Both the position numbers and the translations under genes were made by a program. Below the pieces are notes generated by a model, which worked only from the letters and a program-made list of their open reading frames with translations, did no database searches and was not told where the DNA came from. From an uncultured Chloroflexus sp. (lineage in GTDB: Bacteria > Chloroflexota > Chloroflexia > Chloroflexales > Chloroflexaceae), in contig NZ_CALFBQ010000009.1 in NCBI RefSeq assembly GCF_937951745.1, positions 27,227 to 91,226 on the forward strand: a stretch of 64,000 nt of DNA, written 5' to 3'. Below are positions 2,836-54,985 of the stretch, one piece after another. Position 1 is the stretch's first letter. Every line of letters starts with the position of its first letter.

Positions 2836-5577
2836 TTAGCCTTGGCGATCTTCAGCCAGTAGTTGGCGCAACACATACTGCAAGATACCGCCATGGCGAT
2901 AATACTCGACCTCTTGCGGGGTATCAATCCGAGCACGGGTCTGGAACTCGCGCACTGTGCCATCGGCAGCAGTGACGCGCACGGTGAGGATTCGGCCATT
3001 GGCGAAGCCGCTGGCAATCGCATCAGCCAAACCGATCACATCGTAGACCTCGTGGCCAGTCAAGCCAAGGCTGGCTGCGCTCTCGCCGGGCATAAACTGG
3101 AGCGGCACGATCCCCATCCCGACCAGATTCGAGCGATGGATGCGCTCGAAGCTCTCGGCGATCACCGCCTTGACCCCCTGCAAGTAAGGGCCTTTCGCAG
3201 CCCAATCGCGCGACGAGCCGTTACCGTACTCTTTACCAGCAATCACGATCAGCGGTGTCCCATCGGCCTGATAGCGCATCGCTGCGTCGTAGATGGTCAT
3301 CACCTCGCCGGTAGGCAGGTAGGTGGTAAAGCCGCCCTCGGTGCCCGGTGCCAACTTATTGCGCAGGCGAATGTTAGCGAAGGTGCCACGCACCATCACC
3401 TCGTGATTGCCGCGACGGGCACCATAGCTGTTGAAATCAGCCGGAGCAACGCCATGCTCAATCAGATACTTGCCGGCAGGCGAGTTAATCTTGATGCTGC
3501 CGGCAGGGCTGATATGGTCGGTGGTGATGCTATCACCGAGCAACGCCAACACCCGCGCGCCGTGAATCTCGGCCACTCGCGCAGGCGGGTTCGGACTCAT
3601 CTGATCGAAGTAAGGCGGTCGCCGGACATAGGTGCTGGCAGGATCCCACGCGAAGCGATCGCCGGCCGGCACCGGAATGTTTTCCCAGCGCTCATCACCG
3701 ACAAAGACGCTAGCATACGAGCGGCGATACATCTCGGACTGGACCGCCGTCTCGATCGTCTGCTGTACTTCAGCCTGCGACGGCCAAATATCACGCAGAT
3801 AGACCGGCTGGCCATCCTTACCAATCCCCAACGGTTCTTTATCCAGATCAATATCGATCCGACCAGCAATAGCGTAAGCAACAACCAACGGCGGTGACAT
3901 CAGATAATTGGCCTTTACATCTTGTTGCACCCGCCCCTCGAAGTTACGATTGCCAGAAAGCACTGAAACGGCCACTAAACCCGACTGATCGATCGTCTGA
4001 CTGATTTCCGGCGCCAGCGGGCCAGAGTTGCCGATGCAGGTCGTGCAGCCATACCCGACCACGTGGAAACGTAACGCTTCGAGATAGGGCAATAGGCCAG
4101 CGTTCGCAAGATACTCGGTCACCACCTTTGAGCCGGGGGCGAGCGAGGTCTTGACCCATGGCTTGACGGTCAAACCAGCTTCGACTGCTTTCTTGGCCAA
4201 CAGACCGGCAGCCACCATCACCGACGGGTTGGAGGTGTTGGTGCAGGAGGTAATAGCGGCGATCACGACCGAACCATGGTGCAGCTTATAGCCAGCGCCG
4301 GGAACCTCGACCGCAGTAGCGGCGAAATCAGCCGCCGAGAGCGCGGTATCGGGCTGGGCCGGATTGATAATCGCCGGCACAGCCATGTGGAAGGTGCGGT
4401 TGACCTCGGTCAGCGACACCCGACCTTCGGGACGTTTGGGGCCAGCCACGCTCGGCTCAACGGTGTTCAGATCCAGCTCAAGCACGGTCGAATACGCGGC
4501 TTCGGGGGTATGCTCATCGTGGAAGAGGCCCTGCTCTTTGAAGTATGCCTCAACCAGCGCCACCCGCTCTTCGCTGCGGCCAGAGAAACGCAGATAACGC
4601 AGCGTCTCATCGTCAACCGGGAAGATACCGCAGGTTGCGCCGTATTCGGGGGCCATATTGGCGATGGTGGCACGATCGGCCAGCGGCAGATTGGCCAAAC
4701 CGGGGCCAAAGAACTCGACAAACTTGCCGACCACCCCCAACTTGCGCAACATCTGGGTAACAGTCAGCACCAGATCGGTTGCCGTCGCCCCCTCGCGCAG
4801 ACGACCGGTCAGCTTAAAGCCCACCACCTGCGGGATCAGCATCGAGAGCGGCTGGCCGAGCATCGCTGCCTCGGCTTCAATGCCACCGACACCCCAACCC
4901 AACACACCGAGACCATTGATCATCGTAGTGTGCGAGTCGGTACCGACCAGCGTATCGGGATAGGCTTGCACTGGCCCGCTCGCGCGCGGATTCTCGTCGC
5001 TAGTAAAGACCACGCGGGCCAGATACTCAAGGTTGACCTGATGCACAATCCCGTTGCCGGGAGGCACGACTTTGAAATTATCGAACGCAGTCTGGCCCCA
5101 GCGCAAGAACGCATACCGCTCGACATTGCGCTGGAACTCAAGGTCTTTGTTGATCAGCAGCGCCGCCTCCGAGCCATAGGCATCGACTTGCACCGAGTGG
5201 TCGATCACCAATTCAACCGGCTGCAACGGATTGATCCGGCGCGGATCGCCGCCCAACTCGGCCATAGCATCGCGCATCGCCGCCAGATCGACCACGCACG
5301 GCACGCCGGTAAAGTCTTGCAGAATGACGCGGGCCGGCATAAAGGCTACTTCGCGGTCGGGTTCGGCTTGGGGCTGCCAATTGGCTAGGGCCAGAATATC
5401 ATCGGCAGTGACGGTGCGGCCATCTTCGTGGCGGAGTAGATTTTCGAGCAGGATACGCAGCGAGTAGGGCAAGCGGGCGAGGTTGACGCCGTAGTTGGCG
5501 AGGGCGTCAAGGCGGTAGATTTCATAGGTGCGGCCGCCGACCGTCAAGGTCGAGCGAGCGCCGAAACTGTTGGCCAT
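2836..5577 (-). CDS. acnA: Aconitate hydratase (AcnA type)
   Basis: This cytoplasmic TCA-cycle enzyme isomerises citrate to isocitrate through a [4Fe-4S] cluster. At 913 residues it has the usual length of AcnA/IRP-type aconitases. Cluster cysteines are seen in [13 protein letters not shown] and [13 protein letters not shown]. Other landmarks are [20 protein letters not shown] and the swivelling C-terminal domain with [17 protein letters not shown]. The start is ATG with a strong Shine-Dalgarno (aaggagatgaacg). It is transcribed towards the E2 gene, so the two TCA genes are convergent. The 5' region carries an extended -10 and a small palindrome (separate entry). Confidence 0.97.
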
Positions 5578-6038: not shown

Positions 6039-8174
6039 ATGAACATGGTCGTTCGCACGCGTGGATGGTTGGCGCTGTTCGTTATCGGAATGCTGTGGGT
6101 TGCACTATGGCCACCCACACCAACCCCAGCTCAGGGGCCAAACCGGCTACCAGTCTTTCAGTTAACCAAAATTGCTGTTAGCGACGATACTACTCAATTG
6201 TTAGGCGGCACACTTGAGGGCATCGGACGTGCAGCCCAAACCGGGCAAGACGAGTTTCGCGGCAAGAACCGCTTTTTCCGATTGAACGAGCAAAACCGCA
6301 CCGTGCTGACCCAATACGAAGCATCGGGCGGTTTCTTTGCGTATGACCTTGATGATCTCGGACGCGAAACACCTGCTGGTACCATCAACGACGAAACAGC
6401 CAAGCGATTAGCCTGCCAATTCCTCGTCAACAACAACTTCGTTGGACGCGACGGTACACTGGCGAGCAACGGCCAGAGTAATTATCCGGTGCGGCTACCG
6501 GTGACCCCGGGACAATGCGATGCAACGAAAGACTTTGGCCGTGTCTCACTGATCCGCGCTGCCCAAGTCGCAGCCAACGACCCCACTTTAGGTCAAGTAA
6601 GCCAGTCGATCGTCGGAGTCGTGGTCGAAGTGCCGTTTGGTTTTGTCAACAACCAACAGTTTATCCCCATCGGTGGTGCGGGCGGCCACATCTCGTTGCT
6701 CTTCACCACCACCGACACAACCACACCGCAAAATGGCAGCACCTCACTTGACAGCGGCGTCCCCGGACTAGCCGCCGTAGCAATGCCTTTCTTTGGACGT
6801 ACCCTTGAGTTTCGTGGTACGGTACCGGTGCGCGACCTAAACCAAGTGCGCAGCGAGGTTGAATCACTCATCCGGGCAACGTATCCCGACGCAGCCAACC
6901 TGAATGTGCCGGTGCCGGTGTTAACGTACATGGTTGACGATGCTTCGTTCGAGCAAACTATCATCGAGCCGGAAGCCGTCTTCGATAATATTACGGTCAC
7001 ACTGCCAAGTGGCGAGGTGATAGTGCTACGCTCGTTCTCAACCCCGTTGGCTGTAGGTGGATCGGGAGGGTTTGGACCAACTGTCACCATCACTGCGCCG
7101 GCCAACGGCAGCTCCTTCCCCACCACCGGCGCAATCAACCTCACCGGAACCATTACCGACGGCACCGCGCCCTACACCTATCAATGGCTCCTCGGCGACG
7201 GAACCCCGCTCAGCAGCCCGACCACACTCAATGCACCCGGCTCGGTCAGTCGTTCGGTCACCTTACCGGCTGCGGTGCGTGAAACGACCCCAGATGCGGT
7301 AACCATCATCTTACGCGCAACCGATGCAAATGGAGTACAGCGGGAAGCAAGCATCAGCATCACACCGGATTACCGCTTTGTGTACGTACCAACCATCATC
7401 CGTAGCGGGAGCAGTCCGGCGGCGTTACCAGACATCGAGCTGAACCAATCGTCCAGCTACACGTTTGGTGTCGAAGGCAACTGGGACTACCAGCCCTACG
7501 GGCCGGGTGGTTCTGACTTACCGGGAGTAATCCCGGATGTTAACGGCTTTCACAGTGGCATGAGCGATTACGGCTACACCTCGCGCTTCTTCTGGGCGAA
7601 TGCGAGCGCTTGGGAACGCGACTGGCGCGATGTGAGTTTGGGCGGGATTGACAGCACAAGTGGCGTCGATCGGGCGGCCTTCGTCTACTATGCTGGCCAT
7701 GGCGGCGCCGGCAGCATCGTGATGACCTCGAACCAAGACAGCACATGGTTCGATGCCACTAAGGCGCGCTATCAAAATCTGCGCTGGGTTGGGTTTGCTT
7801 CGTGCCAGACACTGCGGGTGCAAGGCTACACGGTGGGCAACGAACCGATCCGTAGGTGGTTCAACGCCTTCCAAGGCGCGCACATGCTGCTCGGTTTCAA
7901 CAGCAACATGAAAGATGTCGCCTTTGGCGGCAATTTGGTAGCAAACATGCGCATGCCATCATTTCTAGGCATCGACTTGCCATGGGCACAGTTGACCATC
8001 GCACAGGCCTGGGTCAAGACGGCGTTTGATATGAACGCCGGCAAGCCAGCGTACATCTATGCCCGCAGCAGCTCGGTCAATCCGTTGAACGACAAACTAC
8101 CCAAACCGGGCACAGCAATGCCGCCGCGACCATTGCCGGTCATATCATACCATTGGGTGTGGTGGGAGTTTTAG
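6039..8174 (+). CDS. Secreted caspase-like protein with Ig/PKD-like domain (DUF6345-like)
   Basis: The 711-residue protein has an N-terminal signal peptide (hydrophobic core LALFVIGMLWVALW, likely cleaved after about residue 31). An N-terminal domain of about 300 residues of unknown fold follows. A Pro/Thr-rich Ig/PKD-like segment at about 346-445 contains TVTITAPANGSSFPTTG and YTYQWLLGDG. The C-terminal domain has YYAGHGGAG around residue 550 and GFASCQTLR around 587. These give the His and Cys of a caspase-fold dyad as in DUF6345 proteins. It is probably exported, perhaps a surface or extracellular peptidase; activity is not shown. It stands alone, divergent from acnA and convergent with the GH32 gene. 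Confidence 0.65.
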   Translation: MNMVVRTRGWLALFVIGMLWVALWPPTPTPAQGPNRLPVFQLTKIAVSDDTTQLLGGTLEGIGRAAQTGQDEFRGKNRFFRLNEQNRTVLTQYEASGGFFAYDLDDLGRETPAGTINDETAKRLACQFLVNNNFVGRDGTLASNGQSNYPVRLPVTPGQCDATKDFGRVSLIRAAQVAANDPTLGQVSQSIVGVVVEVPFGFVNNQQFIPIGGAGGHISLLFTTTDTTTPQNGSTSLDSGVPGLAAVAMPFFGRTLEFRGTVPVRDLNQVRSEVESLIRATYPDAANLNVPVPVLTYMVDDASFEQTIIEPEAVFDNITVTLPSGEVIVLRSFSTPLAVGGSGGFGPTVTITAPANGSSFPTTGAINLTGTITDGTAPYTYQWLLGDGTPLSSPTTLNAPGSVSRSVTLPAAVRETTPDAVTIILRATDANGVQREASISITPDYRFVYVPTIIRSGSSPAALPDIELNQSSSYTFGVEGNWDYQPYGPGGSDLPGVIPDVNGFHSGMSDYGYTSRFFWANASAWERDWRDVSLGGIDSTSGVDRAAFVYYAGHGGAGSIVMTSNQDSTWFDATKARYQNLRWVGFASCQTLRVQGYTVGNEPIRRWFNAFQGAHMLLGFNSNMKDVAFGGNLVANMRMPSFLGIDLPWAQLTIAQAWVKTAFDMNAGKPAYIYARSSSVNPLNDKLPKPGTAMPPRPLPVISYHWVWWEF

Positions 8175-32358: not shown

Positions 32359-32452
32359 GAGAGCGCATGTAGCCCGGTGGCTGCCGCGGTCTTCAAAACC
32401 GTTGGGCGGAGTGACGAACTGCGCCGGTGGGTTCGACTCCCACGCGCTCTCG
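32359..32452 (+). tRNA. selC: tRNA-Sec (anticodon TCA)
   Basis: The 94-base sequence folds as a bacterial selenocysteine tRNA. The 8-bp acceptor is GAGAGCGC (32359-32366) with GCGCTCTC (32444-32451). The D arm has six pairs with a four-base loop (GTAGCC-cggt-GGCTGC). The anticodon loop CTTCAAA carries TCA. A long variable arm has stem GGCG.AGT / ACT.CGCC, and the T arm is GTGGG-TTCGACT-CCCAC. The discriminator is G, as expected for Sec. CCA is not encoded. The 8+5 acceptor/T-stem geometry and UCA anticodon separate it from tRNA-Ser and from a suppressor. It implies that the organism has SelA/SelB elsewhere. Confidence 0.93.
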
Positions 32453-36432: not shown

Positions 36433-36610
36433 TGTCCACCCTCAATTAGAAGACGCATAACTGACGATTGCCACCACGCAAAGGCGCGCAGTGTATGTAC
36501 TGCAAAGGCACGAAGGACGCCACGGGGCGTAAGGTCTTGTACGGTTAAGGGTGACGTAGGCGCGAGAATGCTCTACCAACAACATCCTTTACACCTTTGC
36601 GCTAACAACC
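36433..36610. repeat. Inverted-repeat gap between adenosine-kinase and YbaK-like genes
   Basis: Left words (cacgcaaaggcgcgcag near 36476 and gcaaaggcacgaaggacgcc near 36503) face a short right arm (catcctttacacctttgcgc near 36583). Weaker and shorter than the other members. No gene is supported. Confidence 0.5.
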
Positions 36611-37132
36611 CTACCAAGCACCCATTTCTTTGATGTCGTTGCGGGTAGCAGCCACTTCACGCCGGTGTTCAGCGATGAATGAAGCTACTGTTGGCGCAAC
36701 TAGTCGGACAAAGTCGCTGTAAGGCAAACTCATAGCAGTAGTATGCTCGCCGGGTTGGATAAAGATGATTGGATCGGATTGCAATGTCTCATCCACATAC
36801 ACCGGTATCTGGTAGAGATTGCCGAACGGTGGAATCGCACCGATCTCACAGTCAGGAAAGGCTTCGGCAAGCTCAATTTCCGTCGCCAGTCGCACCTCGC
36901 TGACAGCAAGCATGTTGCGTACTTTGACCAGATCAATCCGATGTGAAGCTGGGACAACCAACATGACCAGCTCGCCATCAGCTACGACGACGATCACCTT
37001 CGCGACCATCTGGTTCGGAATATGCTCACGTTCGGCGACCGCCTGCGCCGTGTAGGCCGGTGCGTGATGGTATACGTGGTAGGCGACGCCATTGTCGTTG
37101 AGGTATTGTTCGATTCGTTCGCGGCACCTCAT
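36611..37132 (-). CDS. YbaK/EbsC-type aminoacyl-tRNA deacylase
   Basis: The 173-residue stand-alone editing domain hydrolyses mischarged tRNA. Family landmarks are the N-terminal YHVYHHAPAYTAQAVAEREH, then MVAKVIVVVADGELVMLVVP with the catalytic-region Lys, and the GAIPPFGNLYQIPVYVDE segment with the substrate-pocket GxxPP. The C-terminal helix is longer than usual (about 25 residues). It is divergent from uxaC across a 345-bp gap. Confidence 0.9.
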   Translation of the reverse strand: MRCRERIEQYLNDNGVAYHVYHHAPAYTAQAVAEREHIPNQMVAKVIVVVADGELVMLVVPASHRIDLVKVRNMLAVSEVRLATEIELAEAFPDCEIGAIPPFGNLYQIPVYVDETLQSDPIIFIQPGEHTTAMSLPYSDFVRLVAPTVASFIAEHRREVAATRNDIKEMGAW

Positions 37133-37477
37133 TGTGCTGCCTCCTGTGTATTTGTCAGCTTGTGATCTCTTCGACGTAGGAGCGTAAGGATACGTATACT
37201 GTAGCGTATCAAGCGGCGGTGATGCGAAAGAGATTGCACACGTAGAGCGAAGATCTGTTTACAGTGCAAAGACGCAATGTGTGTACACCGCGACGGGCGC
37301 AAGGGAGGGGAACGCAAAGCCACAACGGCCGCAAAAGGGCGCAAGGGGGAGGGAGGGGCAAAGCGCGCAGGCGACACCCTCCCAACACCACCCTTTGCGT
37401 CTTTGTACCTTTGCATTTTGCCCCCTTCGCGTCTTTGCGTTTTACATCCTCTGCGTCTTTGCTTTGAGAGGAGCGAT
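37133..37477. repeat. Divergent gap with inverted repeat, YbaK-like / uxaC
   Basis: This 345-bp region includes the two promoters and a repeat of the GCAAAG family. Left arm words lie at 37266-37335 (gcaaagacgc, gcgcaagg, gcaaagcc) and right arm words at 37391-37465 (ctttgcgtctttg, ttcgcgtctttgcg, ctgcgtctttgc). The right arm ends just before gagaggagcg, the uxaC ribosome binding site. A frame open from 37277 reads through the repeat into uxaC and is not a real N-terminus. Confidence 0.65.
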
Positions 37478-38953: not shown

Positions 38954-39388
38954 TTACCAACCCCACAGCAAAGCAAGGATTACGGTTATCAAGCAGGCCG
39001 TTCCAAAGAGGAACATGGCTTGCGCAGCGCGGAGCAGGTTTGCTTTACGCCCTTGGAGATGGCGGTACATTTGTTGCATCTCGGTGAGGTTGTCTTGCTG
39101 AACGCTGAGGCGGCGCGGCAATGCAACCAGCATAGCGGCGATGAGGGAGGCAAAGAATGCGCAAATACCGGCAGTACCGGCCCATTGCACAACCGGGTTC
39201 TGAAGGTATGCAGGTTGATCACTCAGGGCCAGCACGGCAAAGAGCACGCCGTACAATCCCGTGACCAATTGGGTGATCGTTTGCGCACCAGCTTCGAGTC
39301 GCTCGATATTGCCGCGCTGCTGACTCTCAAACCATTCGCGCAGTTCACGATCGTCAGTTGTTTCGGGGCCAAGGATACGCATAGCCAT
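38954..39388 (-). CDS. Small three-helix membrane protein, last gene of the CHAT operon
   Basis: The 144-residue protein has a charged N-terminal helix (RELREWFESQQRGNIERLEAG) and three predicted membrane helices: ITQLVTGLYGVLFAVLAL, AGTAGICAFFASLIAAMLVAL and AMFLFGTACLITVILALLWGW. A cytoplasmic helix of about 25 residues lies between the second and third. The topology recalls small membrane effectors of the SLATT/Pycsar type, but no sequence family is recognised with certainty. It starts 3 bp after the zinc-ribbon gene stop, so the two are co-translated. It is likely the membrane partner of the CHAT protein upstream. Confidence 0.7.
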   Translation of the reverse strand: MAMRILGPETTDDRELREWFESQQRGNIERLEAGAQTITQLVTGLYGVLFAVLALSDQPAYLQNPVVQWAGTAGICAFFASLIAAMLVALPRRLSVQQDNLTEMQQMYRHLQGRKANLLRAAQAMFLFGTACLITVILALLWGW

Positions 39389-39598: not shown

Positions 39599-39711
39599 TT
39601 TAGCATCTCCGCTACAAGACTGCGGTAAGGTTCGGGGAGGGCGGCAAGATCAGGCGAACAACCGCGCAGCCATGCGGCGACGAGGCGCAACGCCGCCGCC
39701 GCCGCCAGTCA
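39599..39711 (-). pseudogene. CHAT gene C-terminal remnant beyond an in-frame TGA
   Basis: After TGA at 39711-39709 the CHAT frame stays open for 37 codons, reading LAAAAALRLVAAWLRGC and later LPEPYRSLVAEMLK, then stops at a TGA whose GTGA overlaps the zinc-ribbon start. The composition is protein-like (helical, matched to the preceding GEVDGSP). A TGG-to-TGA change, with Trp at that site, is the simplest reading. Selenocysteine insertion is a less likely alternative given the tRNA-Sec in this genome. Confidence 0.7.
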
Positions 39712-42700
39712 CGGCGATCCGTCCACTTCGCCGGCTTCGGCTTGGTCAGCAGCTTGGTCAAGCCGCTCGGCAAACTGGCTCCGTTCGGCAGCAGTTAGCT
39801 CTGGCTGTCGCAACAACTGCGCCCCCAATTGCACGAGCGGCGCCACCTGCGCCAACACCAACAACTCAGCCTGCTGCGCCGGCGTCAATTGGCTCAGCAG
39901 TACCGCTACTTGTTCGGCGAGAGCCTGCACTTCAGTCGCTGCCGGCAATGTGACCGCTTCGCCCCGGACCTGCTGCTCTATCACGGTCAGTAACAGCGCC
40001 AGTTGAGTCGGCAGGGCTGCTTGAATCTGAGCCGCTCGCTCGGCCATACCCGGCTCGTCGCGCAGGCGAAGCTGCAACACGTGCAGAAAATCGTTCGTGC
40101 CAGCGATGGGCAAAGGCTGAATCGCTCGCAGCACCGCCAAATCGTGGGCTAACTCCCAACGTGATGTGCGATCACCGGTGCGCATTGTTTGCACGTAATG
40201 ATTACAGATCTTTGTGAGCAGCGCGACAAATTGCCAATCATCACGACCTCCGTCGCGCCACGCAATGATCGCCTCGCGGATAGTCGGCTCCGGCACGCCA
40301 GCAGCGCGACGGCGCACCTCTTCCAGCGTTGCTCGGTCGCTAGCTAAATCAGGATGGCCGGTACGCTCATCAAGCTCCACTACCTCTTCAGGTAGAGGGA
40401 CAGCGGTAGCGAAGTCACCTTGGCCGACGTGGAACATAGCAAGGTCGTACAGCGCAATGCTCAGGTTTACAAGGCTTTGGCGGTCATCACCGGCCATACG
40501 GAACGCGGCTACCGCTGCCTCTCGTGCCCGTAACTCAGTCACCTGATCACCGAGCACATTGGCCAGATGACCGATGCCCATCAGTGCATCGGCGCGTTCA
40601 GCGGCTGTGCCTTTGGTTAGCAACGGCTCAGCGGCGAGCAACAACTGAGCGGCAGCATCGGCTTGATCGGCGAGGGCGGCCACCAGTGCAGTGACTACTG
40701 GTGCCAGCGCCTCTTCAGCCAACAGTCGTTCAAGTTCGGCCCGTACCTCAGTGGCTGACATCTGGCCGCGTTTAGCACGCACCACAGCCGCGATCAACGC
40801 CCCGACCAAACGAGACGGCGTTCCCACACTTGCGAGCATCGCTTCCATCTGCTGGACGAGCTGAGCAGCTTGGGCTGCGTCAGGCGCCGCGCCAATTGCT
40901 TGCAGCAACTGCCAGCCCGCGCGGACATTGGCTAGGGCCTTGGCATGCTCACCTTGGATGAACTGCACTTGGGCCATCATTATCAGCGTCGCGCTCTTGC
41001 CCTGCACATCGCCCAAGCGTTCACACAGGGCGAGGGACTCCTCGTACAGGCGCAGCGCCCCGTCGAGGTCGCCCCGAATCACCAGCAAGGTTGCTTGCTG
41101 ATGGAATACGCGGCTCAACAACGGCTGATCCGCTGTTTCCTTGGCCACCGCCTCGGCCAAGCCAATACACTGCTCGGCCTGCACCGGTTGACCCAACTGA
41201 CTGAAGATTGACGCAGCCCGCCACGCGCACCAACCGCGCTGGTCAGTTGGCAGGTACGGTAGTGCGGCAGCGATGTCGGGAAGCAAGAATTGGGTCAAAG
41301 CAGCGACGTCGGGATCAGTGTCAATCCTACTGTAGGCCAGTTTGACCAGTTGAGCAACCCAAGCCGCGTAGCGCGTGCGTGCCGGGCCAAGATCGTGCTC
41401 CTGCGCCAAGCGCCCTAGCACGCTAGCAATGACCGGCTGCACACTGTAGGTCAGCGCACGGTTGCGCTGCTCATCGTAGCCGTGGCCTTGCAGCAGTGAG
41501 GCTTGATGCAGCAGTTCTAAGCGCTGGTGAGCTGCCTCGTCTTCCAATCCCCAAATGACAGCTCCGTGCGAGGGTGTGATGACCGGATTAGCGATAATGG
41601 TCAAAGCCAGCAGGTTGGCCTGTAGGTCAGCGGGGAGCGCGTTGAGCGAGATGCGCACGTTGATTTCGAGCGATGACTGCTGGTACATCGGCGCGGCCGG
41701 GTCGTGGGCTTTAGCCAACTCGTCGCGCAGGTTGGCAAGAAAGGTAGTCTCGTCGTCTTGGCTCTTTGCCCAGCGGGCGGCGGCCAGCGTCATCGCCAGT
41801 GGATGGTACTCGACAGCAGCGGCAAGCTCTTCTAAGAAAGCCTGCGAAGGAATGCGCTCACCTACGTGCTGCCGCATCAACGTTACGCTGTCTGCTAAAC
41901 GCAGTCCCTTGAGCTGATGACCCTGTTCGGCGGGCGGGTAGAATGCTTCGCCGGCCAACCCAACCGGGGATTGGCGGGTAGTAAAGAGAAGATGAACGCC
42001 CGCATCGGCCAGCCGCCGCACCAAGCGCTGTACCGCCGCCGCCTCTTGACGTTGTTCGTCGGTAAAGGGAACGCTATCTGTATCACTCACTTCGCGACCC
42101 AACCGCCAGAGCACGGTCTCATAATTATCCCAGATCAGCAACAGGCGTGGACGGGAACGGGCAGCTTCGACCAGTACACGTTCCTGCTTCTCTATGGCTT
42201 CGGGAACATCAAACGCCTGATCTCGTATACCCAGCAACTCGGCCAGCGTCTTGCGTACCGTCGCCGCACGCAACAGTGTATTGTCGCCGGGCAAGAAGAG
42301 ACTGATAGCCACAATCCCATCGTGGAAGTGAAAGCGCAGTCGTTGGGCGAGGGCATTCACGAGGGTGGTTTTGCCAATACCGCCCGTGCCGCGTACCGTC
42401 ACAATCCGTCGCTGGTCGTGGATAAACAGTCGCGCCAATTCGACCAATTCATGTTGCCGACCGACAAAATAACCGGCGGTTGGATCAGGGGCACGCAATT
42501 GTTCGGTATTCGGCCTCGGTGGTTCGAGCGGTGACAGCGCCGCTGGGAGCGTAGGCTTTTGGGTCGGCCACACATAGCCTTGGGCATAGTAGAGCACCGG
42601 CACAGCCCATTCGCGCGGCTCGCTGCGCAATTGGTCTTTGAGTTTCAAGCGCGCTCGATACAAGGCCTGCGCCGGATGGTTGCCGGCAGCGAGCACGCGG

Positions 42701-43263
42701 TAGAAAGTGCGGGCGAAATGGGCGGCAGCTTCATCAAGAACGTGATATTGGGTACCCAGCACAACCGGCACACCCTGCTTGACCAACGCAAGGGCCAGAT
42801 TAGCCCCCGGCTCGTGACTATCAGCAGTGCGACAGGCATTCAAAAAAGCGAAATAGGCCGAGCCGCGCAGCAAAGCAGCCAAATCAGCCACCGGTTGCGC
42901 ATCCATACAACCTGCACCGTCATCAAAGCACAGAACCGGCGTGCCATTCACCACATCACCATGGCCGGTGTAATGAAACAGAATCGGTTCCGACGCAACG
43001 AGATCATCAGTGAGGGCTTGGCGAGTCGGTGCGATCCGCTGCCATCGGATCGGCACTTGCGGATTTTGGCGGGCAAGATCGTCGCGCAGCAGGTCAAGCT
43101 CCTGCACAACCCTCAGTCGCGAGAGCGGCGCATAGTCGGCAAGCAAACCGGTCTGGGGATCGCGCACTTCCTGCAACAGTGGGTCGCTGCCCATCACGAC
43201 GAGGCGCCACGGTAGGGTGGGATCGGGCGGCGAAGGGAGGGGCGCATTCGGCACTTCACGCAC
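39709..43263 (-). CDS. CHAT-STAND-TPR protein, 3' part of a disrupted gene
   Basis: The remaining 1184-residue frame has a CHAT caspase-like domain with His in FHYTGHGD (H101) and Cys in LNACRTAD (C144). A STAND/NB-ARC NTPase follows, with Walker A GTGGIGKTTL (292-301) and Walker B-like RPRLLLIWDNYE (371-382), then TPR-like helices to the end. The real N-terminus is missing: coding sequence continues in frame to 43308 (FLHDGAEYLIFNYLF), where an IS607-type element enters. GTG at 43263 is only the first available start. At the other end an in-frame TGA (39709-39711) cuts the last 37 residues. The family is used in bacterial caspase-like defence or cell death; this copy is probably dead. Confidence 0.85.
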   Translation of the reverse strand: MREVPNAPLPSPPDPTLPWRLVVMGSDPLLQEVRDPQTGLLADYAPLSRLRVVQELDLLRDDLARQNPQVPIRWQRIAPTRQALTDDLVASEPILFHYTGHGDVVNGTPVLCFDDGAGCMDAQPVADLAALLRGSAYFAFLNACRTADSHEPGANLALALVKQGVPVVLGTQYHVLDEAAAHFARTFYRVLAAGNHPAQALYRARLKLKDQLRSEPREWAVPVLYYAQGYVWPTQKPTLPAALSPLEPPRPNTEQLRAPDPTAGYFVGRQHELVELARLFIHDQRRIVTVRGTGGIGKTTLVNALAQRLRFHFHDGIVAISLFLPGDNTLLRAATVRKTLAELLGIRDQAFDVPEAIEKQERVLVEAARSRPRLLLIWDNYETVLWRLGREVSDTDSVPFTDEQRQEAAAVQRLVRRLADAGVHLLFTTRQSPVGLAGEAFYPPAEQGHQLKGLRLADSVTLMRQHVGERIPSQAFLEELAAAVEYHPLAMTLAAARWAKSQDDETTFLANLRDELAKAHDPAAPMYQQSSLEINVRISLNALPADLQANLLALTIIANPVITPSHGAVIWGLEDEAAHQRLELLHQASLLQGHGYDEQRNRALTYSVQPVIASVLGRLAQEHDLGPARTRYAAWVAQLVKLAYSRIDTDPDVAALTQFLLPDIAAALPYLPTDQRGWCAWRAASIFSQLGQPVQAEQCIGLAEAVAKETADQPLLSRVFHQQATLLVIRGDLDGALRLYEESLALCERLGDVQGKSATLIMMAQVQFIQGEHAKALANVRAGWQLLQAIGAAPDAAQAAQLVQQMEAMLASVGTPSRLVGALIAAVVRAKRGQMSATEVRAELERLLAEEALAPVVTALVAALADQADAAAQLLLAAEPLLTKGTAAERADALMGIGHLANVLGDQVTELRAREAAVAAFRMAGDDRQSLVNLSIALYDLAMFHVGQGDFATAVPLPEEVVELDERTGHPDLASDRATLEEVRRRAAGVPEPTIREAIIAWRDGGRDDWQFVALLTKICNHYVQTMRTGDRTSRWELAHDLAVLRAIQPLPIAGTNDFLHVLQLRLRDEPGMAERAAQIQAALPTQLALLLTVIEQQVRGEAVTLPAATEVQALAEQVAVLLSQLTPAQQAELLVLAQVAPLVQLGAQLLRQPELTAAERSQFAERLDQAADQAEAGEVDGSP

Positions 43264-43310
43264 GAAGAGATAGTTGAAGATCAGATACTCAGCGCCATCG
43301 TGGAGAAACT

Positions 43311-43480
43311 GCTATCAAGAAAGTGCGCAAACATGCGCACGATTCTTTTCCTGCCCCGAAGCGTCTTGCAGACCGCATTCGTATCTGACAGGCGTAACTT
43401 TCCCGACTGTCGGAGAGACCCCCTCTCCCACAGTGCCGCCGTTGCCGGACGGACTCGCCACGGGTAGGGCAGTTGCGGTT
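43311..43480 (-). ncRNA. Predicted TnpB guide RNA (reRNA/omegaRNA) at the right end
   Basis: In TnpB elements the 3' end of tnpB and the element end encode a structured RNA whose 3' guide comes from the flank. Here the tnpB 3' region is followed by a hairpin (GTGCGCA-tgtt-TGCGCAC, 43340-43323), and the element ends at 43311. A guide would then begin TTTCTCCACGATGGCGCT, i.e. CHAT gene sequence from 43308 downward. The 5' limit of the RNA is not determined; this is inferred from family knowledge. Confidence 0.4.
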
Positions 43481-44655
43481 GCCAGCCGTTGCAGGTTGAT
43501 CGCGGCATTGAGATCGCGGTCGTGGTGCGTGCCACACGCTGGACACATCCATTCCCGATCACTCAACGTCAGCGCGTCGTTTTTATAACCACAGACCGAA
43601 CACAGGCGGCTGCTCGGATACCAGCGATCGGCGACGATCAACTGAGTTCCGTAGCGTTTGGCCTTGTATTCGATCTGCGAGCGGAACAGGCCAAAGCCCA
43701 CATCACTGATGGCGCGGGCGAATTTGTCGTTCGCCAGCATCCCCTTGACGTGCACATCCTCGATCACCACCGCTTGGTTTTCGCGGCAAAGCCGAGTTGT
43801 AAGCTTGTGGACAAAGTCTGTTCGGATATTGGCAATGCGAGCATGTAGTCTTGCCACTATCTGAGCTGATTTCCTGCAATTGTTCGAGAGCGTTAGTCGC
43901 ATGCCTTTTGGCATGCGCTGCTTAGGCAGAAAACCAGCATGTATTTTCGCCGCTTCGACCTTACGGCTCAACCGCCTGCTGCGAATGCGCAACCTGCGCA
44001 AGGCTGATGTGAGCGGCTTCGGAGCTTGGATAGCCTCACCGCTGGAGAGCGTAGCTGCCGACTTGATGCCCAGATCAACGCCGACGGTGCCATGCGCCGT
44101 CCTTCTACGGTAAAACTGCGCATCAGGCACATCGACATGGATTGCGACATACCAACGATCCGCCGTGCGCGACACCGTCGCACCCAGGATTTTTCCCGAA
44201 AAGCGCAACGTTTCGGTCATCAATACATCGCCAATCTTTGGCAAGCGGATGGTCTTGCCATCGAGCTTGAACTTGTCGTTCGCAACGTAGCAACTGTCAC
44301 GGCAACGACCCTTCTTCTTGAACTGTGGGGCTTGCGCCGGTTTTCCTGCTTTGATGTCGGCGAAGAACCGATCCCATGCGTTTGCCAGATGAACAAATGG
44401 TCGTGCATGGGCATCCCGATGGATGCCACGCAACCAAGGCTGACCGTTTTCATCGAGCCATTGTGGATCGCTGTATTTGATGGCGTTGAACTGCTTTTTC
44501 AGCGCCATCGCATTCGGCTTGAGGCCTGCCTCATATTGCTTGTTCCACTCAGCCAGCGCCCAGTTCCAGACGCGCCGTGCCGCACCGCAAGCGCGCTTGA
44601 AGTAGTCCACCTGCTCTGGTGTCGGGCAAAGGGCGATTTTGTGGGTCAGGTGCAT
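43315..44655 (-). CDS. tnpB: TnpB RNA-guided nuclease, IS607-type element
   Basis: The 446-residue protein is a complete TnpB. The RuvC-like active site is Asp194 in VGVDLGIKSAATL, Glu299 in VVIEDVHVKGM and the Asp of HHDRDLNAAINL (about 379-381). The zinc finger is CSVC...CPAC (C352, C355, C371, C374). The N-terminus (KIALCPTPEQVDYFKRACG) is the usual OrfB start. TnpB cuts DNA matching its guide next to a TAM and keeps the element in the population. All key residues are present, so it may be active. It lies 189 bp after tnpA, and its stop is about 5 bp from the element end. Confidence 0.95.
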   Translation of the reverse strand: MHLTHKIALCPTPEQVDYFKRACGAARRVWNWALAEWNKQYEAGLKPNAMALKKQFNAIKYSDPQWLDENGQPWLRGIHRDAHARPFVHLANAWDRFFADIKAGKPAQAPQFKKKGRCRDSCYVANDKFKLDGKTIRLPKIGDVLMTETLRFSGKILGATVSRTADRWYVAIHVDVPDAQFYRRRTAHGTVGVDLGIKSAATLSSGEAIQAPKPLTSALRRLRIRSRRLSRKVEAAKIHAGFLPKQRMPKGMRLTLSNNCRKSAQIVARLHARIANIRTDFVHKLTTRLCRENQAVVIEDVHVKGMLANDKFARAISDVGFGLFRSQIEYKAKRYGTQLIVADRWYPSSRLCSVCGYKNDALTLSDREWMCPACGTHHDRDLNAAINLQRLATATALPVASPSGNGGTVGEGVSPTVGKVTPVRYECGLQDASGQEKNRAHVCALS

Positions 44656-44844
44656 GGCTTACTCATATTTCTCGTCAGGAGAACGTCAGACTACCACGCC
44701 AGTCTCGACGCATCCGACCCGACCGTCGACATCTTCTGGTCTTCAACGCCCTCAATGGCTGTTGCCACAGCAGAAGATATGCGTTCGTCATGTCGCGTGA
44801 ATGCCTCTTTGGGAAGCACATCGCTGTTCAGCGGGAAATCTGAT

Positions 44845-45477
44845 TCAATTCGATACGTCATGAGCTGCATCTTGGTTCAGCGCTTCGTTCAGGTGTTTCC
44901 GGTAGTTCCGCAATCCGGAAAGCCTAGACGAAAAGCAATGCACAATGGTCATCAGGTCTTGCACCATTTCCTGTTCTGGCGCGAGACGCTCTTGATTGAG
45001 CACCAGCACCTCGCATCCATGCGATGGTGCGTCGTGCTCAAACCACTCGAAACCGAAGCGAGTACGCCGGTCACGGTGGGCAAGGATCAGGGTCTTCATT
45101 TCCCGCCGACCACGTTCGTCCATCAGCTTCAGAACCTTCTTACGCTTAACGGTGAGACCACCGCCTCCTTCCTCGATGAATTCGACATGTGCCAACCCCT
45201 TTGCTACCACAAACTCTTCCAGCACCTTGCGCTGATGTGCCAAGTCCGGCTTCGGTGCCGCACTTGATATACGGCAGGAAGCGACGATCCGCGTTGGCTC
45301 GGATACCGCCTGCCGCACGCCAATGAACTCACGCAACGGTGTCTCGGTGTAACGACGGCGATTGCTGCCTGTTCGTGCCACCGGAATCAACCGCCCTTCG
45401 CGTTCGCATCGCTGCAAGGTTTTGACCGAACAGCCCAGCAACTTCGCCGCCCTGCCTCTATTCATGGTGGTTTCCAT
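44845..45477 (-). CDS. tnpA: IS607-family serine recombinase TnpA
   Basis: The protein of about 210 residues has an N-terminal MerR-like helix-turn-helix (GRAAKLLGCSVKTLQRCERE). A resolvase-type catalytic domain follows, with the serine in ASCRISSAAPKPDLAHQ. The C-terminal DNA-binding segment is HCFSSRLSGLRNYRK, which ends IS607 TnpA proteins. It cuts and joins DNA through a serine-DNA link and inserts with a 2-bp core, as seen at the element ends. Start choices at 45483 (GTG), 45477 and 45465 differ by a few residues. It appears intact. Confidence 0.93.
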   Translation of the reverse strand: METTMNRGRAAKLLGCSVKTLQRCEREGRLIPVARTGSNRRRYTETPLREFIGVRQAVSEPTRIVASCRISSAAPKPDLAHQRKVLEEFVVAKGLAHVEFIEEGGGGLTVKRKKVLKLMDERGRREMKTLILAHRDRRTRFGFEWFEHDAPSHGCEVLVLNQERLAPEQEMVQDLMTIVHCFSSRLSGLRNYRKHLNEALNQDAAHDVSN

Positions 45478-45492
45478 AAACACAATGATACA

Positions 45493-45813
45493 CTATTGCG
45501 CACTATATGCAATACTAGAGTCGAGCTCCCACGGCACAGCAGCCAATGCGGGATCATCGGTCTGAATAGCGATAAGGCTGTCAGGATGAGGCGCGCGCGG
45601 CAGGGCCGCCAGTGCGGCGCGCAGCGTGTCGCCGCCCAAGGCGGCGAAGAGGCGTTGACCATACGCGAGCGGATCGCTCGGCACATGACGCTGAGCGAAG
45701 AGTGGTTGCTCAACCAGCAGCGCGGCCGGCTCGACAGTGGCAATTGTCTGGTCAGCAATGCATACGTCTACACGATGCGAGTCACGGCGATGGAAGGCGA
45801 TGGTGATGGGCAT
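45493..45813 (-). pseudogene. CHAT gene N-terminal fragment, cut by the IS607 element
   Basis: This frame encodes 106 residues starting MPITIAFHRRDSHRVDV after a good Shine-Dalgarno (ggaggctgc). The first 96 residues end in DDPALAAVPWE, the typical pre-CHAT segment, and then run into element sequence (LDSSIAYSAQ). The rest of the protein resumes at 43308 on the other side of the element. Restored, the gene would encode about 1330 residues. A minus-strand extended -10 (TATACT, 45850-45845) lies 32-37 bases upstream of the ATG. Confidence 0.85.
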
Positions 45814-54777: not shown

Positions 54778-54825
54778 CGCGCACAACGTTCGCTTGCGCC
54801 ATGGTGCGTCGGCGAACTTCAGATG

Positions 54826-54985
54826 CTCATCGAGATGGGCTGAGGGACTGGCCCGATGACGCCCGGCAACCCCCGTCAGGGAAGGTGCCAAATCCAGCGG
54901 CAATGGACAACATTGGCCGGAAGATGAGAGGAACGACGTGATTATCGGAGCCTCTCGCCGCGCGAGTGGCTCCATCTTATTGCAA
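54826..54985 (+). promoter_or_regulatory. SAM-I (S-box) riboswitch with terminator-type expression platform
   Basis: The aptamer runs from CTCATC (54826) to GATGAG (54928), the P1 stem. Conserved S-box words are present: GAGGGACTGGCCCGATGA, CCCGGCAACC and GGTGCCAAATCC. A 10-bp hairpin follows (54947-54973, GGAGCC-CTCG ... CGAG-GGCTCC). Its 3' side continues into ATCTTATT. AAGATG of P1 (54921-54926) can pair with CATCTT (54973-54978), giving a mutually exclusive antiterminator. With SAM bound, the terminator should form and switch the mtnA operon off. Confidence 0.93.

Follow-up and report, generated by a model that had tools for sequence, protein, structure and literature searches.

An IS607-family element with an AG exchange core and a GGAG flank interrupts a CHAT-NACHT-TPR gene in an uncultured Chloroflexus

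We analyzed a 64,000-nucleotide stretch of DNA (hereafter the window) from an uncultured Chloroflexus, the genome of which (G000; 4.25 Mb in 94 contigs) is 99.39% complete. An IS607-family element, delimited by comparing its ends with those of another copy elsewhere in the genome and by a contiguous orthologue in a same-genus genome (G004), occupies positions 43309..45527 on the minus strand, including an AG core at either end; with one core it measures 2217 bp (about 2.2 kb). The element separates two parts of a host gene on the same strand: an N-terminal part of 95 aa plus one base (45528..45813), placed by alignment with the G004 orthologue (locus L063), and a C-terminal part (39709..43308) in which Pfam searches matched most of a CHAT domain (67.4 bits), then NACHT (31.0 bits) and TPR_12 (51.1 bits). 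Elsewhere, the window holds a selenocysteine tRNA gene (32359-32451; Rfam tRNA-Sec, 74.4 bits) and a SAM riboswitch (54824-54930; 79.2 bits).

The first gene of the element, tnpA (44845..45483, minus strand), encodes an IS607 serine transposase of 212 aa that scored 163.3 bits against NCBIfam NF033518, the IS607 equivalog with a cut-off of 110, which bears out the family assignment made in an earlier, sequence-only reading of this DNA. Pfam places a MerR domain at residues 10-45 and a Resolvase domain at residues 67-192, the relatives in PDB include the transposases of ISC1904, ISC1926 and IS1535, and the R-x-S motif is kept (R71 and S73, the latter being what we take to be the active-site serine). 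The second gene, tnpB (43315..44655, minus strand), encodes a predicted RNA-guided nuclease of 446 aa (NCBIfam NF040570, guided_TnpB, 296.9 bits, cut-off 100). Alignment with ISDra2 TnpB revealed a complete RuvC triad (D194, E299, D381) and a four-cysteine zinc motif (C352/C355/C371/C374); both proteins keep their active-site residues, as had been claimed. TnpB scored higher against the IS200_TnpB than the IS607_TnpB model (305.3 vs 267.4 bits), both scores lying under the respective cut-offs of 425 and 350. Its closest natural solved structure is ISDra2 TnpB (PDB 8bf8, level with 8h1j; E 1.4e-47), both entries being outscored as structural matches by an AI-designed nuclease, and its best match outside the window, at 95% identity, comes from an uncultured Chloroflexus.

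Along the minus strand, the interrupted locus reads ...CCGTGGG-AG-CTCGACTCTAGT...TTGATAGC-AG-TTTCTCCACGATGG..., the left core lying at 45527-45526 and the right core (43309..43310, minus strand), located by end comparison, the G004 alignment and homologue DNA, standing in the context GCAG. The left end of the element (45494..45525, minus strand), defined from 36 compared left ends, begins CTCGACTCTAGT, where the family mostly has CTAGACTCTAGT. The GGAG at the left junction (45526..45529, minus strand) consists of host bases, the last two of which form the AG core, and is a predicted TnpB target-adjacent motif (TAM). The overlap is exactly 2 bp because the bases beyond AG differ on both sides: G in the host and C in the element before it, T in the host and C in the element after it. 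An AG overlap alone is not distinctive, as there are 864 in-frame, stop-free joints nearby and longer chance overlaps outranked AG; the joint therefore rests on relatives.

Window positions 45813-45526 align with 7662-7375 of the G004 orthologue and positions 43310-42201 with 7376-6267, such that both window copies of AG land on a single AG at which the flanks abut; the ends at 43309 and 45527 that had been proposed earlier are right to the base. Homologous loci were examined in 22 cases, 13 of which could be anchored across the joint, the nine others being more distant and without a recognisable anchor. PWE[YF] runs unbroken between the N-terminal and C-terminal parts in all 13. Both the 2-bp core, at which the flanks of the contiguous homologues meet, and the adjacency of PWE to the residues that follow it had been predicted and were recovered in this comparison, and the contiguous homologues support the further claim that the CHAT-STAND-TPR gene was continuous before insertion. 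The residue after PWE is encoded by a Tyr codon in 12 of the 13 and is Phe, as in the window, in L015, where the joint sequence is GGGAGTTTCTGC. When the DNA of these 13 joints was read, with a pattern that itself presupposes PWE[YF], the uninterrupted site was GGAG in eight and GGAA in five (GGGAG vs GGGAA), G003 being among the latter; among the contiguous homologues, L009 has AG and L064 has AA at the site. The search for an empty site in relatives that had been suggested succeeded in part, contiguous sites, all from outside the species itself, being present at every anchored locus and the exact 12-mer GGGAGTTTCTCC being seen in none of the relatives searched. Synteny with G004 extends downstream (neighbour genes 38963-39388 and 36584-37144) and is absent upstream, the GNAT gene lying elsewhere in that genome, at 4483527-4484336.

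One further copy turned up in the genome, on contig C48, with a TnpA 83% and a TnpB 89% identical to those of the window copy. As far as the AG cores, the ends of the two copies match, apart from the three bases that follow the left core (CTC in the window copy, GAA in copy 2). In same-genus relatives, the site of copy 2 reads GGAGG-AG-TACG, with one clean AG in seven out of seven. Since uninterrupted relatives show a single AG at the sites of both copies, the exchange point is, on this comparison, AG. For both copies we found the IS607 hallmark of no target-site duplication, with one AG in uninterrupted relatives and AG at both ends of the occupied site; the GG core of the studied IS607 members is replaced here by AG, and we treat GG as non-defining. 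Given the divergence of the only other copy, the sequences do not point to recent copying inside this genome. The earlier remark that the element may be young and mobile therefore fared unevenly, with intact frames and a host dN/dS that is not raised in its favour and the divergence of the two copies against it.

Copy 2 (L059 2797-6293) sits inside a T-box leader upstream of a glycyl-tRNA synthetase gene (glyRS), downstream of an apparent -10 region read by eye. Scores with the T-box model were 48.5 bits in this genome and 57.5-81.4 bits among the seven relatives; none reaches the gathering score of 93. No second glyRS gene of the same type was found in the genome, a search that an unrelated enzyme type would escape. 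Nested in copy 2, at about 3527-4804 of L059, is an element with TnpB only (376 aa), which follows TTCAC and ends TTGAC.

To place the flanking motif in a wider set, genome contigs were scanned for TnpA, and the best 80 of 94 stretches were kept, giving 82 loci with the window and copy 2. Left ends were taken from the 42 loci with a TnpA of at least 55% identity and an N-terminal part, the other 40 being dropped; one strain, Rhabdochromatium marinum, contributes 14 of the 42, at different sites. The left-end motif was found, at no more than two mismatches in eight, in 40 of the 42, and GGAG lies directly upstream of 35 of these 40 left ends and is missing at five. Thirteen more distant TnpA loci (45-51% identity), whose left ends were unreadable by eye, enter none of these counts. 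Upstream of GGAG, 36 left ends showed no strong base preference. As uninterrupted sites themselves carry GGAG (8/13 at the CHAT gene, 7/7 relatives at the site of copy 2), the motif belongs to the target and not to the element.

GGAG accompanies two kinds of TnpB. It was present at 12 of 14 left ends paired with the window type of TnpB, at nine of nine paired with a second type and at 14 of 17 from loci that stop short of tnpB. The second type, of 461 aa, scored 104.6 bits in L077 and 98.3 bits in L101 against guided_TnpB (cut-off 100), and its D-E-D-like motifs were read from the sequence. A BLASTP comparison of the second type with the window TnpB was not significant (best E 0.041), the accompanying TnpAs being 76% identical. 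This nuclease occurs in purple sulfur bacteria, in elements with close TnpA relatives that share the left end and landing motif (L074, L075, L077, L078, L080, L082, L083, L091 and L145). We considered whether it is of the RAGATH-18 kind and rejected this, there being no RAGATH-18 match in L074, L077, L082, L099, L101, L106 or L142. Right ends of the window type finish in AG in 10 of 11 cases, as found with a search string that itself ended in AG and after a spurious match in L094 had been dropped, the exception being L031 (CG); second-type right ends in L074, L077 and L082 finish in GGAGCAG. A Shine-Dalgarno-like GGAG precedes the L077 element (left junction near 4955, right end at about 7000-7040) and an ATG follows it; the GGAGCAG at the right end may supply a new ribosome-binding site. 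Related elements in G003 (L030/L045) and G054 (L031/L043) look decayed, their tnpA matches being scattered across two or three frames.

At the right end, a predicted reRNA scaffold of six helices (43317..43472, minus strand) overlaps the 3' end of tnpB. RNAalifold on 11 aligned right ends gave 44 pairs, of which 22 show changes in both partners, a number reached by none of 500 shuffles, bearing in mind that related sequences can exceed shuffles without structure. Shifting the pairing partner along by one to three positions lowered the proportion of paired cells from 92.3% to 36.7-47.0%, a control in which the fold is favoured by having come from the same alignment. The right-end sequence of the window alone gave a folding z of -2.25. 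Rfam searches retrieved no guide RNA of a known family from the window and, at gathering level, none in 11 related loci, and there was no gathering-level RAGATH-18 match in the window or in L072, L073, L076 and L100. By analogy with the TnpB reRNAs described in PMC10711439 and PMC11061315, the 20 host bases beside the right end (43289..43308, minus strand) are the predicted guide. A search of the genome for GGAG plus the next 16 bases, at no more than three mismatches, returned one match, the right junction itself, where the motif reads GCAG; the occupied site would therefore lack the predicted TAM, which an uninterrupted one would have.

The protein interrupted by the element combines CHAT, NACHT/NB-ARC and TPR domains, all three of which are present in two intact homologues, L063 and L009, although L009 is cut off at the locus edge. 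In L063, the CHAT match spans residues 51-335 (285 residues); the insertion point maps to about residue 96, which places the split near the start of CHAT, and we predict that the split gene no longer yields an active protease. For the part of the gene carried by the window, the PADLOC matches were limited to SAVED_CHAT (30.3 bits) and mad8 (18.8 bits), and on this result we rejected identity with a known defence system. The TPR array (39709-43263) is much shorter than in the G004 homologue, with two TPR_12 stretches vs eight. Between 43263 and 43317, tnpB and the host fragment share one frame, separated by TGA TAG, and the next in-frame start is a GTG at 43263.

Pairwise dN/dS over 641 codons was 0.11-0.17 between the window genome and six homologues and 0.11-0.26 among those six; as it is not raised, the sequences give no clear sign of relaxed selection on the C-terminal fragment. 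Amino-acid relative-rate counts placed more changes on the window genome than on G004 with four of five outgroups (81 to 14 with G036, 70 to 18 with G042, 50 to 29 with G003 and 71 to 21 with G010; 30 vs 34 with G006). These selection and rate tests are weak because synonymous sites are near saturation and because exchange of the gene between lineages is likely, judging from G036, which belongs to another genus and is closer to G004 than the window genome is. The gene is also patchily distributed, since no CHAT gene match at E 1e-20 was found in G007, which is 96% identical over the glyS leader.

Compared with IS607, IS1535 and ISC1926 as described in PMC6188088, the element has the same tnpA-tnpB order, the same DNA-binding and serine recombinase domains and the same exchange over an identical dinucleotide with no target duplication, which in the family proceeds via a circular double-stranded form (PMC6188088, PMC10711439); unlike theirs, its termini and target are AG. 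A GG core is the one described for IS607, IS1535, ISC1926 and ISXfa1 in these two accounts, and the literature that we searched on IS607 and the AG dinucleotide yielded no description of an AG core. ISXfa1 (PMC10711439) resembles the element in having an IS607 TnpB and a reRNA that continues past the right end (a prediction here), and differs in its GG crossover and GGG motif, as against an AG core and GGAG flank. The active RAGATH-18-group IS607 TnpBs, such as that of ISFba1, share the IS607 setting, and their TAMs, 5'-AGGAG in 18 of 22 strains and GAGGG in 4 of 22, resemble GGAG; the AGGAG TAM suggests that AG stands beside the left end there too (PMC11061315). Their guide RNA is, according to the same account, separate from the coding sequence and of the RAGATH-18 type, whereas the scaffold predicted here overlaps tnpB and has no RAGATH-18 match in Rfam. 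In that overlap it is like the IS200/IS605 TnpBs, including ISDra2 TnpB (8bf8), whose guide RNAs overlap the coding sequence and which favours an AT-rich TAM (PMC11061315). ISDra2 is nevertheless an IS200/IS605 element with an AT-richer TAM, in contrast to the serine transposase and G-rich flank found here.

The exact joint, the contiguous homologues, the second AG joint, the GGAG flanks and the covarying right-end fold can be read from the sequences. We consider it probable, at roughly 80%, that TnpA-mediated exchange at an AG following GG inserted the element and that a predicted RNA-guided TnpB would cut element-free copies. TnpA would likely have performed the dinucleotide exchange through a circular double-stranded form, as described for the family. 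By analogy, we predict that GGAG is the TnpB TAM and that the guide begins with the host bases that adjoin the right core (from 43308 downward), the right-end RNA carrying these bases. TnpB would then cut element-free copies of the gene, helping the element to persist, and GCAG at the occupied right end would spare the site from self-cutting.

The two copies differ in the bases behind the left core, CTC vs GAA. The element might accordingly start three bases further in, from GACTC, with CTC belonging to the host and the protein reading PWE-L-FLHDG. We rejected this joint as highly improbable: none of the 13 anchored homologues has the extra residue, the seven relatives at the copy 2 site have no GAA, and related elements mostly carry CTA there. 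A more serious alternative, well short of even odds, is that GGAG is a landing preference of TnpA only, with TnpB recognising another motif or none and playing no role in keeping the element at the site. It arises because the IS200/IS605 model fits TnpB better and ISDra2 has an AT-rich TAM; persistence of the motif with two BLASTP-unrelatable TnpBs is as expected if TnpA sets it, and IS607 transposition needs TnpA alone according to PMC6188088. Yet matches to the AGGAG/GAGGG TAMs of RAGATH-18-group IS607 TnpBs adjoin putative left ends (PMC11061315), and, since the active site of TnpB and the RNA fold are both conserved, the nuclease looks selected for.

It is unlikely, in our judgement, that the insertion is old and that the downstream fragment is in use as a truncated protein, started from the GTG at 43263 by reinitiation behind tnpB. 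The fragment is open over 1184 codons, lies in the tnpB frame about 50 bases past the TGA-TAG and has a low dN/dS, but a young insertion accounts for the same data, and the fragment has lost the N-terminal part and, with it, roughly 45 residues at the start of the 285-residue CHAT match. We also advance a tentative proposal, to which we give somewhat less than even odds: one TnpA lineage may have carried two BLASTP-unrelatable TnpBs, both bent to its landing motif (GGAG as TAM, AG as core). On this proposal, an IS607-type TnpA would have captured an IS605-like nuclease, whose TAM would have switched from AT-rich to G-rich, and the one altered base at the right end (GCAG) would serve as its self-protection.

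The element is ordinary in kind, and the AG core and the occurrence of GGAG under two very distant TnpBs are its notable parts. Relative to the described cases in the accounts compared above, what is new is the presence of GGAG before left ends with either TnpB partner and of an AG core where those cases use GG. For both copies, relatives with a contiguous site fix the AG core. A compact TnpB with a predicted G-rich target motif is thereby placed in a Chloroflexus-like host, presumably a thermophile, and the natural swap of TnpB under one TnpA and one motif allows a direct test of whether TnpA sets the motif that its guide-RNA nuclease targets.
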